Part shown: piece after piece, positions 1 to 5,561 of the stretch | Numbering within the stretch: the stretch's first letter is position 1 | Layout: each line of letters begins with the position of its first letter | Assembly (NCBI GenBank): GCA_031286005.1 | Contig: JAITVC010000273.1 | Location: 1-5,561 of the forward strand | Direction: 5' to 3' | DNA from: Bacteroidales bacterium | GTDB lineage: Bacteria; Bacteroidota; Bacteroidia; Bacteroidales; P3 | DNA: 5,561 nucleotides | Made by a program: the position numbers and the translations under genes | Notes under the pieces: generated by a model | Databases searched by the model: none | What the model was told of the DNA's origin: nothing | What the model saw: the letters and a program-made list of their open reading frames with translations, nothing else

Positions 1-683
1 CGGGCTACAAAATCGTCTTTTCGCAGGATACTGTTTTGTAGCGTTTCGGCAACGGTTTTTAGGCATTCATCACCCTTAATGTGGCCGTATTGGTCGTTGA
101 ATTTCTTAAAGAAATCAATATCCACCATCAGTATACTGAGCACACTACCGGAACGGGACAAGGTGTTCATCAAGCGCGCAATGGTATCATCAAAATAACG
201 CCGGTTGTAAATCCCTGTTAGCCCGTCGTAGTGAATTTTCTTGGCCTCTAACTCCATACGAACAAGCGCTTCTTGTGTTTTTCTTAACTCGGTTATGTCG
301 ATGGCATATTCAAGGTGCGCTTTTCGCCCGTCGGGCCAATCAATGAATCGTGCTGTTTTACGTAGTATGGCACCTTTCACTTCTTCGTGGTGTTCCCATA
401 TAAAGGTCTTGTCAGGTTCTTCATGCAACCGATCATAGGGGCAGGTAGGGCAGGGACTATCCCGTTTCTGAAGTAATTTATAGCAAATTTGGCCTACGCC
501 ATCTTCTTCAATACCAAAATTACGTCTAATACTATCGTTGAGAAAGAGAATCTCGAAAGTTTCGGAGTCACACACACAGATGATAGCTTCCATTCCATTC
601 AAGATGCTTCTAAGCATAGCTTGTTGATCGATTTCAACATTCGGCAGCTTAGTTTCATTAATCTTTGGTAGTTGTTTTTGCAT
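1..683 (-). CDS. PAS-GGDEF diguanylate cyclase, 3' part missing (window edge)
   Basis: Probable sensor diguanylate cyclase, an enzyme class that makes cyclic di-GMP from two GTP. About 227 residues are visible, starting at the ATG complementary to 681-683, and the frame is open to the left edge. Residues about 24-130 look like a PAS sensor domain: it opens LRSILNGMEAIICVCD and closes with DITELRKTQEAL, the usual PAS-to-linker transition. The GGDEF domain starts near residue 150 with DGLTGIYNRR (153-162), then VDIDFFKKFNDQYGH (187-201), whose D188 and D190 fall in the metal-binding region, then KGDECL. The window ends just after DDFVA, immediately before the expected GGD/EEF signature, so catalytic competence cannot be judged. 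No signal peptide or membrane segment is seen, so a cytoplasmic protein is inferred. Cysteines 67, 78 and 81 form C-x10-C-x2-C inside the PAS domain. The start is supported by a -7 box about 20 bp upstream. Family call is confident; signal and activity are unknown. Confidence 0.9.
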   Translation of the reverse strand, partial: MQKQLPKINETKLPNVEIDQQAMLRSILNGMEAIICVCDSETFEILFLNDSIRRNFGIEEDGVGQICYKLLQKRDSPCPTCPYDRLHEEPDKTFIWEHHEEVKGAILRKTARFIDWPDGRKAHLEYAIDITELRKTQEALVRMELEAKKIHYDGLTGIYNRRYFDDTIARLMNTLSRSGSVLSILMVDIDFFKKFNDQYGHIKGDECLKTVAETLQNSILRKDDFVA

Positions 684-702
684 ATTTTTTTGTTTTAGAG
701 TG

Positions 703-710
703 CAAAGATA
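703..710 (-). promoter_or_regulatory. -7 box TATCTTTG for the GGDEF gene
   Basis: On the minus strand TATCTTTG matches the Bacteroidota sigma-ABfr -7 consensus TAnnTTTG. The GGDEF start codon is about 20 bp downstream, giving a short A-rich leader. I could not find a convincing TTTG -33 element at the usual spacing, because that position is occupied by the opposing arm and the T-rich spacer. Confidence 0.6.
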
Positions 711-723
711 CGAAAAAAAATTG

Positions 724-731
724 TATCTTTG
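724..731 (+). promoter_or_regulatory. -7 box TATCTTTG for the rightward repeat ORF/DUF6261 unit
   Basis: TATCTTTG on the plus strand matches TAnnTTTG. Transcription would begin near 738-742, just ahead of the ATG at 749. That makes starts upstream of 724 unusable from this promoter. A clear -33 TTTG at standard spacing is not seen. Confidence 0.6.
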
Positions 732-748
732 CACCAAGTTTACAACAA

Positions 749-1009
749 ATGACTCTAAATCTTAGTAAGATGCCCTATAAAACATCCATTAGAAACGCAA
801 CAATGCCCTCGCTGCAATGCGTGAGGAGTGCGTTTCAAACTGCTGCGTACTTGCATCAAATGGTGCAATCTTGTTGCAAACTTGCGACGGCCTTGCACCG
901 AGTGGTGCAAAGCTGTTTCAAATCTGCGGCGGATTTGCACCAAGTGGTGCAAGCCAATTCAAATTTTGAGGGCTTGCATCAAATCTGCGGAAACCAGCTA
1001 TACGATTGA
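749..1009 (+). CDS. Small hypothetical protein with 14-residue repeats
   Basis: Putative 86-residue protein that I do not recognise. An in-frame ATG exists further upstream at 665, but it precedes the -7 box at 724-731. I therefore chose the ATG at 749, with a third possible start at 770. The body is a tandem repeat of about 14 residues: LHQMVQSCCKLATA, LHRVVQSCFKSAAD, LHQVVQANSNFEG, then a partial LHQICG. A diverged first copy begins LQCVRSAFQ. Leu at position 1, hydrophobics at 4-5 and Ala/Leu near 11-12 would fit an amphipathic helix of two heptads per repeat. Unit lengths of 42, 42 and 39 bp keep the frame, which favours translation. Against this, the repeat core is a DNA palindrome, so the opposite strand is also open and shows LHH-VQ repeats. 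The open frame may therefore be a by-product of a structured RNA or DNA array. It is 49 bp upstream of, and co-oriented with, the DUF6261-like gene. Confidence 0.45.
   Translation: MTLNLSKMPYKTSIRNATMPSLQCVRSAFQTAAYLHQMVQSCCKLATALHRVVQSCFKSAADLHQVVQANSNFEGLHQICGNQLYD
812..990. repeat. 42-bp tandem repeat array with palindromic cores
   Basis: Units start at about 812 (diverged, 39 bp), 851 (42 bp), 893 (42 bp), 935 (39 bp) and 974 (truncated). Each of the three good units begins with an 18-bp core: 851-868, 893-910 and 935-952. The copy at 935-952, TTGCACCAAGTGGTGCAA, is perfectly symmetric (8-bp arms around AG). As RNA it would form a 7-bp stem with a tetraloop. The 851 copy has one C-to-T change that still pairs as U-G on the plus strand, and the 893 change falls in the loop. 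The rest of each unit carries a looser shared motif, TTTCAAA or TTGCAAA followed by a G/C-rich TGCG-like stretch. The last unit joins a left arm directly to that motif, as if the middle had been deleted. Confidence 0.8.
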
Positions 1010-1025
1010 AAAAAAACATTTATTA

Positions 1026-1033
1026 TATATTTA
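1026..1033 (+). promoter_or_regulatory. Possible weak -7 box and A/T-rich leader before the DUF6261-like gene
   Basis: The 49-bp gap (1010-1058) is almost entirely A/T. TATATTTA at 1026-1033 resembles TAnnTTTG but lacks the final G, and sits 25 bp before the ATG at 1059. No Shine-Dalgarno is present, which is normal in this group, where A-rich leaders serve. No terminator hairpin separates the repeat ORF from this gene, so read-through from the 724-731 promoter is equally plausible. Confidence 0.25.
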
Positions 1034-1058
1034 TTAACCAAATTAAAAACAAACTATT

Positions 1059-1790
1059 ATGAATGTAAAAGCACCTTTATTAACTAATCTTCGCAACGAG
1101 GAGCACTTTCAATTTATGTCCGATGTGGCGGATTTGCTATCGGCGGCCGACGAGCGTGTGAAAACTGCCCTTGGCAAGAATGCGACAGATTTTACCAATT
1201 TGCAAAAGCGTGAAGATGCGGCACTGGAACAAATTCGCAAGAACCAGCACTCCAAAAGTTTGGCGGAGATGGATGCCGCACGCGATACCCTTTACAAGGG
1301 ACTGATGCTGCTCACGGATGCCTATGCGAGTTTTGCTCCGCAGAGCAACGAGGCCTTGGCGGCCGAAAAAGTGCAAGGGGTGATTGACCATTATGGCGAT
1401 TTCAGTCGGAAACCGTATAACGAGCAAACGGGTACGCTTCACAACTTTATCCAAGAGTTGGAAACGGGCTGCACTGCCGCGCTCACCACAATGCACGCCG
1501 AAGCGTTTATCACAACGCTGAAAAACATCAACAAGGAGTTTCAAGAAGTTATGAACGTTCGTTACGACGAAAAGGCGACCACCGAAGTGGAAAACTTGCG
1601 TGATTTGCGCCTCGAAATCGACACCCTATATCGCAAAATTGCGAGCATCATCGAGTCCAGCATCGTTATTTTTGAAGAACAAGAGTATATTGATTTCGCC
1701 AAAAAACTCAACGAGCGGGTGGCCTATTATAATACGACCCTCAAAGCACGCAAAGGCGTTGCGGCGAAGAAAGAGGAAACGGCGGAATAA
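1059..1790 (+). CDS. DUF6261-like helical protein of unknown function
   Basis: A 243-residue protein with no signal peptide or membrane segment, predicted cytoplasmic. It starts MNVKAPLLTNLRNEEHFQF. The LRNEEHFQF stretch (11-19) and overall length are what I associate with DUF6261, a family I know from Bacteroidales; this is from memory, not a search. The whole chain is rich in Glu, Lys, Ala and Leu and looks all-helical, with likely long helices around 20-60, 65-110, 125-165 and 175-230. It ends in a charged tail, KARKGVAAKKEETAE. No catalytic motif, metal-binding cluster or nucleotide-binding loop is apparent, so an enzymatic role is not supported. A scaffold or binding protein is only a guess. 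It follows the repeat ORF with the same orientation and no terminator between them, and its 3' side is closed by the palindromic repeat and the terminator at 1914-1945. The ATG follows an A-rich leader typical of the group. Confidence 0.75.
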   Translation: MNVKAPLLTNLRNEEHFQFMSDVADLLSAADERVKTALGKNATDFTNLQKREDAALEQIRKNQHSKSLAEMDAARDTLYKGLMLLTDAYASFAPQSNEALAAEKVQGVIDHYGDFSRKPYNEQTGTLHNFIQELETGCTAALTTMHAEAFITTLKNINKEFQEVMNVRYDEKATTEVENLRDLRLEIDTLYRKIASIIESSIVIFEEQEYIDFAKKLNERVAYYNTTLKARKGVAAKKEETAE

Positions 1791-1796
1791 CCAAAA

Positions 1797-1870
1797 ACGG
1801 TCGTTTCGACTCCGCTCAACGACCGTACATCGGTGGCTGAACTGCACATCGGTGGCTGAGCGGAGTCGAA
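1797..1870. repeat. Nested intergenic palindromic repeat
   Basis: A perfect 14-bp inverted repeat, TTCGACTCCGCTCA (1805-1818) against TGAGCGGAGTCGAA (1857-1870), encloses a direct repeat ACATCGGTGGCTGA present twice (1827-1840 and 1846-1859). A second perfect 9-bp inverted repeat, ACGGTCGTT (1797-1805) with AACGACCGT (1818-1826), shares sequence with the left long arm, so the two hairpins exclude each other. Similar TTCGACTCCGCTCA-type palindromes are, from memory, dispersed in many Bacteroidota genomes; I cannot count copies here. There is no transposase and no target duplication. Confidence 0.75.
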
Positions 1871-1913
1871 GCCATTGAGGTTAAAAAGTAATGAATATCC
1901 AAACACATCAAAG

Positions 1914-1945
1914 AAAAAGGATGGCGCTTTGTCGCCATCCTTTTT
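1914..1945. terminator. Bidirectional intrinsic terminator
   Basis: The arms AAAAAGGATGGCG (1914-1926) and CGCCATCCTTTTT (1933-1945) are exact reverse complements around a 6-base loop. An 8-bp G/C-rich stem is flanked by an A-tract on the left and a T-tract on the right, so it can end transcripts from both sides. It serves the DUF6261-like gene rightwards. On the minus strand it sits 4 bp after the stop codon of the metallophosphoesterase, closing the atp-lnt operon. Confidence 0.9.
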
Positions 1946-1949
1946 TATG

Positions 1950-3059
1950 TTAAAACGAAAACTCCACCACCACAATCTCCGAGCGTGTGCCAATGCGATA
2001 GAGCGGCCCCCAGATGCCGAGGCCGGACGACACATAGAAATGCGTGCCACCTTTCTTCTTGTAGCCGTATGCCAATTCGTAGATGGATTTCACGATTAAG
2101 TTTCCGGGAAAGAATTGCCCGTTGTGCGTATGTCCCGAAAACTGCATCGCCACGCCGTTCTGCTCGGCCTCTTCCAAATGGTAGGGCTGGTGATCCAACA
2201 GGATAACGGGATATTGTTTATCCAAATCGGCAACGATTTCGGATAACGGTTTCCGGTGGCGGTTCGTTTTGTCGTCGCGCCCTGCGATATAAAAACTGCT
2301 GTCGACCAAAACCGCCTCATCAAACAACATTTGGATGCCCGATTTCTCATAATATTCAAAGTTCAGATGGCGATTATCGGCATAATATTCGTGATTGCCC
2401 GCCACGCCATACACGCCGTATTTGGCCTCAATCTGCCGCAAATCATCATCAATCTGTTGGCGAATGAAAGGTTCCATATTTCGATCGGCCAAATCGCCTG
2501 CAAGCAGAACGATGTCGGGCGCTTGCTCGTTGATTAATTTCACAAAGCGTTGCGCCTCCTTTTTGCGGATATTGTTGCCAAAATGCAAATCGCTGGCCAT
2601 AACGATTCTCAGATGTTTGTTTTGCGATGACTGTTCGGCAGAGACAGCCAACGTGGTAACATCGGGATGATTGAACTTATAGTTTCCAACCATCAGAGCA
2701 ATGAGCACAATACCGAAACTGACGGCATTTGCCCACATTCGGCACGTGCTCACAAGCGTTGCATCCGCATGAATAAACAGCGCATTGACGATTCTGCACA
2801 GGTCAATCAACAAAAACGCCACACCCATATACAGCACGGCTATCAAGAACGTAAAACCAACGAACGATAGCGTGCCGCCCACGTTCGGCGAAAGATAATC
2901 GGCCCCCAAGAATCCGGTAAACAAGGTTAGCAATAAAGCAACAAATGCAATACTGTAAATCCATTTGCCAATGGGATAGTGTGCAAAATTATGGTATCCG
3001 CGAAAAAAGATATACCCCATCAACAGGAGAAAGAGTGCAAGAAATAAAGTGTGTTTCAT
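1950..3059 (-). CDS. Membrane-anchored calcineurin-like metallophosphoesterase (YkuE/YaeI-like)
   Basis: A 369-residue protein with an N-terminal membrane part of about four hydrophobic segments (roughly 3-20, 33-53, 62-88 and 110-126), then a metallophosphoesterase domain from about 148 to the end. All family metal-binding blocks are present: SDLHFG (D157, H159), GDLADRN (D189), GNHEYY (N222, H223), LDHQP (H290) and SGHTHNGQ (H310, H312). This predicts an active two-metal phosphohydrolase held at the inner membrane. The substrate is not shown by sequence. Related proteins of the YkuE/YaeI type are envelope-linked, and a lipid or cell-wall phosphoester is plausible. The ATG lies 3 bp after the lnt stop codon, so it is translated from the same transcript, and the bidirectional terminator follows its stop immediately. 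It is the last gene of the atpD-atpC-lnt operon. Length and layout are normal and nothing is broken. Confidence 0.92.
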   Translation of the reverse strand: MKHTLFLALFLLLMGYIFFRGYHNFAHYPIGKWIYSIAFVALLLTLFTGFLGADYLSPNVGGTLSFVGFTFLIAVLYMGVAFLLIDLCRIVNALFIHADATLVSTCRMWANAVSFGIVLIALMVGNYKFNHPDVTTLAVSAEQSSQNKHLRIVMASDLHFGNNIRKKEAQRFVKLINEQAPDIVLLAGDLADRNMEPFIRQQIDDDLRQIEAKYGVYGVAGNHEYYADNRHLNFEYYEKSGIQMLFDEAVLVDSSFYIAGRDDKTNRHRKPLSEIVADLDKQYPVILLDHQPYHLEEAEQNGVAMQFSGHTHNGQFFPGNLIVKSIYELAYGYKKKGGTHFYVSSGLGIWGPLYRIGTRSEIVVVEFSF

Positions 3060-3062
3060 AAA

Positions 3063-4691
3063 TTATTTTGTAGGAATAGGCATCATCCATCTAAACACGA
3101 TGGCTAACAATAGCAACAGTCCGGCGAAAAACAGGGATATTCGACCGATATAATCGCCATATTTCACGTAAAACGTAATTTCATCGTTGGCCTTAATGGT
3201 TTGCGAGATAACAGCTTCTTCCCAATAGGGTGTGGCTTGAAAAACATCGCCACGTTGGTTGATAAAACAAGAAATACCGGTGTTGGCACAGCGGGCAATA
3301 TCACGGCGGGTTTCGATGGCACGCAATCTCGCATAGCGTGCATGTTGGCGGTGTCCGGGCGAATTGCCCCACCAGCCATCGTTGGTGATAATGCACAAAA
3401 ATTGGGCGCCGTTTCTCACAAATCCACTCACGAAATCGCCGTAAATAGACTCGTAGCAAATCACGGGAGAGAATGGCGGTGTGCCATATTGAGAGCGGAA
3501 TACATCTCGATTCACGCTGATACCAAGAGTGCCAACCGTTCCGCCCATGTCAAGCGCTAATTTCTCCAAAGGACGAAAGTATTTGACGAACGGCATAATT
3601 TCCACGCCGGGAGTTAACTTCGACTTGTAATACTTTTGTGAATAATCATCCTTGCTAACCAACAAGGCTGTATTGTGCGCCTCATAAAACTGATTGCCAT
3701 ACGACCGTGCTGCTGCCGTTTGTTCAGGTACTAAATGAAACGAAGAAAGCCCTGCTATCATCTCAACACTGTCATACTTTGACAAGAACGCCTGAATCGT
3801 TCTCAAACTTGGCGATTGCGCCATCTTATGTTCCCAAACATACTCCTGAATCATACTCTCCGGAGTAAGAATTAAACGAGTGTTAGGACTAATCTTAGTC
3901 TCCGCCAAACGTAACAGTCGCTCGGTAGCCACCACAGGGTCCAAATCATATTGCTCACTATAAGGGTCAATATTTGGTTGAACAACCAAAACCTCCATAT
4001 TAGTGCCCTTCTCTTCATAACGGCTATACATCACCAACGAAACAAGCATCGGCACGCAAAGTACAACACCTGCCCACAATCTTGACATACGGGGCAATGC
4101 TTTCGCAAAACGAGTCTTCGGCGTTAAATGCTCAAACAATTGTTGGTAGATACGCTGTCTAAACATCCCAAAGAGTGCAATATTACTCGCCCAAATCCAA
4201 ATCGATCCGCCCAAAGCGCCTGTAAACTCGTAGAATTGCACTAATGAGGGTTGCCAAGCAAACACATTGCCAAGCGTAATCCAAGGCCACGATAAATCCC
4301 AATCGAAATGGAAATACTCAAAGGCTGTAAAGAACACCATCAATACCCACAAACAATTGCGTCCTTTGAACACATGCTTCTTCACGATGTAATACAAATA
4401 CACCATCAAAGCCATCCATACACTATTCGAGAGAAAAGCGAATATGGCAGCAGGTGTGGAATTGAACACCCACCATGTTGTGATGATATTCCAAACTAAA
4501 AACGTCAGAAATGAATAGCCAAAGAAACGCTTGCCGTTTTTAACATCCGGTGTTTTTTCCAAATCGCTGAACAGCCAAAAGAGCGGAATAAAAGCAATAA
4601 AAATTAAAACTACGGCAAAGGGGCCTGTCCATGCCAAACCCAAAAGGACTCCGCTTAAAACAGCTAATCCTAAACGCACAACTGTCTTCAT
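3063..4691 (-). CDS. lnt: Apolipoprotein N-acyltransferase Lnt
   Basis: Transfers an acyl chain from a phospholipid to the N-terminal cysteine of diacylated lipoproteins, the last step of lipoprotein maturation, at the outer face of the inner membrane. The 542 residues, close to the usual length, start with several membrane segments (about 4-41, 58-101, 112-128, 152-178 and 205-222). A nitrilase-like domain follows (about 232-500) and then a C-terminal membrane segment (516-535). The catalytic triad is visible: E278 in LTPESM, K356 in YYKSKLTPGVE and C412 in VICYES. E364 in GVE matches the additional essential Glu of the family. ITNDGWWGNSPGHRQH (435-450) and RAIETRRDIARCANTGIS (457-474) are standard Lnt blocks. 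The start is 2 bp after the atpC stop and the next gene begins 3 bp after this stop, so expression should be coupled to the atp genes. No separate promoter is seen. Confidence 0.96.
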   Translation of the reverse strand: MKTVVRLGLAVLSGVLLGLAWTGPFAVVLIFIAFIPLFWLFSDLEKTPDVKNGKRFFGYSFLTFLVWNIITTWWVFNSTPAAIFAFLSNSVWMALMVYLYYIVKKHVFKGRNCLWVLMVFFTAFEYFHFDWDLSWPWITLGNVFAWQPSLVQFYEFTGALGGSIWIWASNIALFGMFRQRIYQQLFEHLTPKTRFAKALPRMSRLWAGVVLCVPMLVSLVMYSRYEEKGTNMEVLVVQPNIDPYSEQYDLDPVVATERLLRLAETKISPNTRLILTPESMIQEYVWEHKMAQSPSLRTIQAFLSKYDSVEMIAGLSSFHLVPEQTAAARSYGNQFYEAHNTALLVSKDDYSQKYYKSKLTPGVEIMPFVKYFRPLEKLALDMGGTVGTLGISVNRDVFRSQYGTPPFSPVICYESIYGDFVSGFVRNGAQFLCIITNDGWWGNSPGHRQHARYARLRAIETRRDIARCANTGISCFINQRGDVFQATPYWEEAVISQTIKANDEITFYVKYGDYIGRISLFFAGLLLLLAIVFRWMMPIPTK

Positions 4692-4693
4692 GC

Positions 4694-5561
<868 letters not shown>

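Follow-up and report, generated by a model that had tools for sequence, protein, structure and literature searches.

Tandem repeat arrays upstream of DUF6261 genes in Bacteroidales: putative DNA-level sites phased with the helical turn

Upstream of a gene of the DUF6261 family, a contig of a Bacteroidales bacterium (JAITVC010000273.1, assembly GCA_031286005.1) carries a short tandem array of palindromic repeats, which raises the question of whether such an array acts as DNA, as RNA or through a peptide, and with which partner. A first-pass annotation, made from the letters alone, had offered a structured leader RNA, a multi-site operator or the gene of a repeat-bearing peptide. Here we compare the array with its relatives across the order, the window being the whole stretch of 5,561 bp at positions 1 to 5,561 of the contig. 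The array is real and family-wide, and is unexplained by any known system that we found. Literature searches, with subscription journals outside their coverage, returned no description of 41/42-bp, 21-bp or helical-turn arrays of this kind among the papers listed.

Cyclic alignment places the array of the window at 832-995 on the plus strand, with about 3.9 units of about 42 bp spaced mostly at 42 bp and in some cases at 39 and 41 bp, and Tandem Repeats Finder (TRF) returns its core at 849-952 (period 42, 2.5 copies, score 124). Direct reading finds the three dyad cores where the first-pass annotation had put them, at 851-868, 893-910 and 935-952. The second and third are perfect inverted repeats with 7-bp arms round 4 central bases, and the first contains one T.G step, as had been claimed for its variant base. 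A half unit at 973-984 (plus strand), an exact copy of 850-861, consists of the left arm alone and is reached by a step of 39 bp. The 42-bp period and the final 39-bp step agree with the earlier description. The whole 42-bp unit repeats and there are no unique spacers, so this is not a CRISPR array, and the window has no Rfam match at the gathering threshold.

The gene that follows (1059-1790, plus strand) encodes a predicted all-helical protein of 243 residues with a pI of 5.2, and matches the Pfam model DUF6261 (PF19775) with 118.7 bits against a cut-off of 27, as the first reading of the locus had guessed. The tested neighbours in the window are GGDEF, metallophosphatase and apolipoprotein N-acyltransferase genes, of which the GGDEF gene lies on the minus strand. 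The motif TANNTTTG, which we take to be the Bacteroidetes-type -7 promoter element, was placed in the window by motif location. One such box (TATCTTTG, 724-731, plus strand) is the probable promoter of the leader and the DUF6261 gene, and an opposed box (TATCTTTG on the minus strand, 703-710), assigned from the inverted repeat and the strand of the gene, is the probable promoter of the divergent GGDEF gene. Both boxes are contained in a perfect 12-bp inverted repeat (700-711/723-734), and the segment 700-734 is probably a compact divergent promoter with the GGDEF gene on one side and the DUF6261 leader on the other. Since the array lies 3' of the box at 724-731, it is probably transcribed. An exact copy of the promoter end, TTTGCACCAAGT (728-739), is found in unit 3 at 934-945, a distance of about five 41-bp steps; it may be a further site or a chance match.

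Arrays of this kind are common in relatives, whose lack of them would have told against a structural role according to the first-pass annotation. An initial scan of genome contigs yielded 20 loci with DUF6261, most of them with 41-42 bp arrays 5' of the gene and with mostly different letters. The full set comprised 159 Bacteroidales loci, some of the weakest DUF6261 matches of the genome samples being left out, and was reduced to 147 distinct genes, 144 of which had at least 200 nt of upstream sequence. A strong self-match (threshold 22) was found in 112 of the 144 upstream regions. The best lag was 40-44 in 95 and 82-86 in 13, together 108 of 144 (75%), while the remaining 36 had no array of about 41-bp period above the threshold (4 with other lags, 32 below it). 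In control regions, a lag of 41-43 was seen in 4 of 131 downstream and 0 of 144 coding regions. When 58 upstream regions were mononucleotide-shuffled once each, the highest score was 14. The array of the window belongs to this class, which is defined by 41-42 bp tandem units no more than 600 nt 5' of DUF6261; its dominant spacing is 42 bp.

TRF gave a unit of 39-44 bp in 99 of the 144 upstream regions. Aligned to a cyclic unit, these arrays have a mean spacing of 41.57 bp, with 41 and 42 bp dominant (191 and 233 unit-equivalents). The arrays have a median of 5.6 units and lie at a median distance of 82 nt from the start codon. A lag of 21 gives no signal in the DUF6261-linked arrays, and the unit is therefore not a doubled 21-mer. 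The -7 motif is concentrated 50-150 nt 5' of the array, where two 50-nt bins contain it at 14 of 89 and 11 of 91 loci, compared with 3 to 6 loci per bin in the six remaining ones, so the arrays tend to occupy the leader, with many loci lacking the exact motif there. No cluster of other neighbour genes occurs in more than 4 of the 147 loci (346 ORFs, flanks of up to 2.5 kb per side, often less). At one locus the array (L017:556-738) lies about 800 bp from its DUF6261 gene, as if another protein gene had been inserted between them; the protein resembles the GxxExxY family. Two DUF6261 arrays of one genome (L005 and L006) are preceded by long (GA)n runs.

DUF6261 itself is patchy and multi-copy: of 149 genomes sampled from the order, 15 have it, in 1 to 18 copies, and each of 7 genomes picked through matches has 3 to 21 copies. 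The protein is predicted to be all-helical (pLDDT 89), and its predicted fold has no PDB or viral match of weight and no DNA binder among its matches. Against Pfam and NCBIfam, DUF6261 is the sole model above cut-off, with no ParB, toxin or HUH Y1 transposase model, and a search of PADLOC gave no match. In the literature searched, the family is mentioned once, in a paper on Streptococcus oralis. Outside the set of 144, a DUF6261 gene without an array lies on an unverified contig from human faeces labelled bacteriophage (L415:4001-4735, MT837725), which may be a fragment of a bacterial chromosome.

A further regularity lies in how the units of an array differ from one another. For composition and variability analyses 9 arrays similar to another were left out, and exclusion of arrays under 3 units left 86 for variability. 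Plotted by position in the unit, copy-to-copy differences have one dominant period of 10.4 bp (share 0.114, z 12.6), seen in units of 40-41 bp (z 9.5, 43 arrays) and 42 bp (z 8.3, 39 arrays) and again when the data are divided in two (z 8.9 for 48 arrays, 9.1 for 38). It is the strongest harmonic in 25 of the 86 arrays (4.3 expected), and simulated arrays passed through the identical pipeline gave z -0.5. The 15 arrays without a dyad also have it (z 4.1). In 49 arrays aligned on the dyad centre, the least variable positions lie 2-7 and 15-17 bp to either side of it, and the most variable ones at 0-1, 9-13 and 20 bp. The period recurs in the purine/pyrimidine content of 89 units of 40-43 bp (z 7.8; 4.8 in 41-bp and 4.7 in 42-bp units) and not in their A/T content. 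The window array by itself lacks the phasing (rank 11 of 19), a point against the explanation favoured below; with 3.9 units it is too short to reveal it. The straightforward reading of the phasing suggests one contact per helical turn, on one face of the DNA and with two-fold symmetry. Were the pattern due instead to biased mutation or repair of protein-bound DNA, a bound protein would be required all the same. We are fairly confident that the arrays are DNA-level phased sites.

The symmetry of the units bears on whether DNA or RNA is the acting form. Inverted repeats with arms of at least 5 bp are present in 82 of 99 units, compared with a mean of 34 in 50 shuffles (maximum 44), and with arms of at least 6 bp in 54 of 99, compared with 10 in shuffles. 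Of 34 stems with 4 bases in the centre, 12 are fully symmetric there (expectation 1 in 16), and 28 of 42 dyads with arms of at least 7 bp have 0-2 central bases, a count biased towards short centres because their arms are counted longer. With centres symmetric or nearly absent, many of the dyads are therefore DNA palindromes, continuous through the centre without a loop, rather than looped hairpins. Dyad columns diverge less between copies than columns elsewhere (0.105 vs 0.163, arms of at least 7). Double changes within dyads are Watson-Crick in 24 of 40 cases (arms of at least 7) and 37 of 79 (arms of at least 5), where by our own reckoning a third is expected by chance.

This tendency of double changes to preserve pairing would also fit an array that acts as RNA, either as a regulatory leader of tandem hairpins or as the repeat antitoxin RNA in a pair resembling type III toxin-antitoxin systems, DUF6261 being the protein. 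The order of promoter, tandem repeats and one protein gene at DUF6261 loci is that of type III (ToxIN) loci, as given in PMC8860590. The plus strand of the window array folds well (z -6.1, the minus strand being weaker at z -4.3), and where a stem encloses 3 or more loop bases, single changes favour G-U over A-C (65 vs 46 with arms of at least 7, 135 vs 123 with arms of at least 5), a small lean that goes against the DNA-level reading. The best dyads of the 99 arrays, however, show no excess of G-U over A-C (115 vs 106, p 0.59), and only 37 of 99 have a more stable plus strand (Wilcoxon p 0.001, arrays over 330 nt being shortened), a direction opposite to that of an RNA leader. The RNA impression of the first-pass annotation is therefore right for the window array, whose plus strand folds better, and not for the class. 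Unlike ToxIN, the linked arrays have no clear RNA-strand bias in their pairing, terminator-like sites occur in just 2 of 99 gaps between array and gene (0.4 in shuffles; a simple scan, perfect stems only), and the predicted all-helical protein has no toxin match in Pfam, NCBIfam or PADLOC. Nor is a 10.4-bp period expected of RNA, and we consider an RNA role improbable. A small peptide gene is far less credible still. An open frame of 86 codons (749-1009, plus strand) does cross the window array and its translation has a 14-residue repeat, but it is probably no gene, its only match among 5.8 billion proteins being itself. Moreover, 51 of the 99 arrays have no open plus-strand frame (48 have one), 41-bp units shift the frame and are mixed with 42-bp units within the class, so that reading frames are not kept, and a 3-bp period is absent from the variability (z about -2.7 to -2.8). 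The earlier interpretation is thus borne out in part: the position and fold of the window array suit a structured leader RNA and the class does not, the repeat peptide finds no support, and the multi-site operator gains support in kind from the relatives' dyads, their four-turn pitch and their phased conservation, which would be in keeping with operator-like sites.

Array and protein tend to vary together. DUF6261 pairs less than 50% identical have arrays with almost no letters in common, sharing just the pitch. Above this, arrays score at least 16 in the same orientation in 5 of 14 pairs at 50-60% identity, 7 of 27 at 60-80% and 7 of 9 over 80%. Of 18 array pairs scoring at least 18, 17 come from proteins at least 50% identical, and 16 score better in the same orientation. 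Exceptions are L089/L044 (24% identity) and one pair at 25-30%, alike in the opposite orientation. Related arrays are also found on contigs without DUF6261 in two of the three genomes searched: relatives of the L092 array on contigs 312, 19, 256 and 5 of G006, and relatives of the L001 array on contigs 502, 37, 315 and 116 of G001, the solo arrays of the L001 family having different dyads inside a similar frame. In the third genome, the L132 array has no relatives elsewhere. A survey of 588,279 bases from two DUF6261-rich genomes, not chosen by gene, found 17 places with arrays (unit 39-44 or 81-86 bp), one of them in a longer coding-like frame, three beside genes of the families F2 and F3 described below, and some at a contig end. 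Phasing is weak (h4 z 1.6) in a group of seventeen arrays located away from DUF6261, two of which are linked to F2; this weakness fits relics or a mixed origin and counts against a uniform role.

Among known systems, the closest is sopC (parS), the F-plasmid centromere to which SopB (ParB) binds. PMC9178275 describes twelve tandem repeats of 43 bp, nearly the unit length found here, beside the gene of their binder; within each, a dimer binds a 16-bp inverted repeat. The 42-bp units with 18-bp dyads of the window, and the dyads in 82 of the 99 units of the class, agree with this pattern. Unlike sopC, the DUF6261 array lies upstream of the gene, in the leader; the protein has no match to a ParB model in Pfam or NCBIfam; no gene for a ParA-type ATPase recurs beside the arrays among the 346 neighbour ORFs (flanks of up to 2.5 kb); and positive genomes contain between 1 and 21 DUF6261 genes, the letters of most arrays being their own. 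Because ParB and ParA were not found here, sopC is a likeness and not a case of membership. REP/REPIN elements with RAYT (TnpA-REP), as far as the available accounts go, likewise tie dispersed palindromes to a linked gene; the DUF6261 arrays are instead tandem and at helical pitch, and DUF6261 has no transposase domain in Pfam or NCBIfam. The PgRS/MITE464 elements of Porphyromonas gingivalis, another member of the Bacteroidales, contain 41-nt tandem direct repeats, in around 10-20 copies per genome, and are described as MITEs with IS5-like ends. The available part of this account (PMC4596501), with which we compared by description only, contains no DUF6261 link or helical phasing.

Two further protein families, F2 (loci L226-L255, e.g. 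the gene at L232:1483-2226) and F3 (loci L256-L274, e.g. L261:1492-2223), are accompanied by arrays of half this pitch. F2 is present in 14 and F3 in 10 of the 149 genomes, and the members tested have no Pfam or NCBIfam match above cut-off. Arrays with a period of 21 bp and its multiples lie 3' of the gene in 20 of 28 (F2) and 8 of 18 (F3) usable downstream regions, the exception being L249, an F2 gene with its array upstream. Their mean spacing is 20.96 bp, and their variability has a period of 10.5 bp (z 5.1 for 20 F2 arrays, z 2.7 for 8 F3 arrays). Compared with shuffles, dyads are not in excess in F2 (9 vs 11.4) and in some excess in F3 (12 vs 6.1). F2 has 5,590 relatives at E 0.001 and is predicted to have two helical halves. 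The similarity between these halves (hhalign probability 97, E 1.2e-10) makes F2 an internal duplication. One F3 member has weak PADLOC similarity to PDC-M02B (E 0.0008). Profile comparison gave no similarity between DUF6261, F2 and F3.

The explanation that we favour, tentatively and at somewhat less than even confidence, is that the array is a row of double-stranded DNA sites with DUF6261 as binder and with autoregulation. A unit, about 41.6 bp or four helical turns long, would be two-fold symmetric and would be contacted by a two-fold protein on one face, once per turn. Because successive units would lie on one face, a continuous nucleoprotein patch could form, in a typical relative of about 5-6 dimers over 20-25 turns. 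The likeliest binder is the DUF6261 protein of the adjoining gene, which, judging from linkage and covariation of sequences, probably binds the array. Each paralogue would tend to travel with its own array, both diverging. Protein bound to the array, 3' of the promoter and 5' of the start codon, would stop or dampen transcription of its own gene, and related arrays elsewhere could serve as further docking sites. The data themselves show the pitch, the symmetry, the 10.4-bp conservation, the link to DUF6261 and the solo copies, from which the presence of a bound protein, its being DUF6261, autoregulation and any role in the cell are inferred. The main objection to DUF6261 as binder is its acidity (median pI 5.9 over 139 proteins), the protein being clearly basic only at residues 221-240, together with the lack of a DNA binder among its fold matches. 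The 36 of 144 upstream regions without such an array, and the gene on MT837725, likewise tell against this explanation.

That acidity, together with the solo arrays away from DUF6261 and the 10.5-bp signature of the arrays of the unrelated F2 and F3, would sit well with a phased site for another host protein, either a nucleoid protein or a regulator, with DUF6261 just a neighbour or a downstream target. We consider this unlikely, though a serious contender: a single general protein would hardly require dozens of unrelated unit sequences in one order, array likeness accompanies DUF6261 protein likeness, and pitch and side are specific to the family (upstream and 41.6 bp for DUF6261, mostly downstream and 21 bp for F2 and F3). 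Decidedly unlikely is a selfish or neutral minisatellite whose units multiply and spread through slippage, recombination or mobilisation in the manner of PgRS/MITE464, with DUF6261 incidental or a helper of their spread. Arrays scattered between genes, their weak phasing away from DUF6261, the up to 21 copies of DUF6261 per genome and the 41-nt tandem repeats of PgRS as described in the part of PMC4596501 available are in its favour, but neutral expansion explains neither a fixed pitch over unrelated sequences nor the 10.4-bp conservation and the linkage to 108 of 144 DUF6261 genes.

Beyond autoregulation by DUF6261, a broader picture can be drawn, which we regard as speculative and somewhat doubtful. 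The Bacteroidales would be hosts of orthogonal protein-array pairs, in which DUF6261, F2 and F3, unrelated and each of about 240 residues, recognise their own arrays, the letters drifting and the pitch staying at whole helical turns. Suggestively, about 240 residues match two helical turns in DUF6261 and F2; at about two turns per chain, F2 would occupy 21-bp direct repeats and DUF6261 dimers 42-bp palindromes, forming filament-like nucleoprotein patches at many chromosomal sites that mark or organise DNA. Three protein families without assigned function gain a hypothesis here, a DNA partner beside each gene. A pitch that stays fixed while the letters change is an unusual evolutionary pattern, and divergence within arrays gives a readout of a footprint without experiment. 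There may be a bearing on the long-known 41-nt repeats of P. gingivalis, and a genome with many paralogue-array pairs would offer a ready-made set of orthogonal DNA-binding modules. If true, such protein-array pairs would be a hitherto unnoticed way to mark or organise bacterial DNA.
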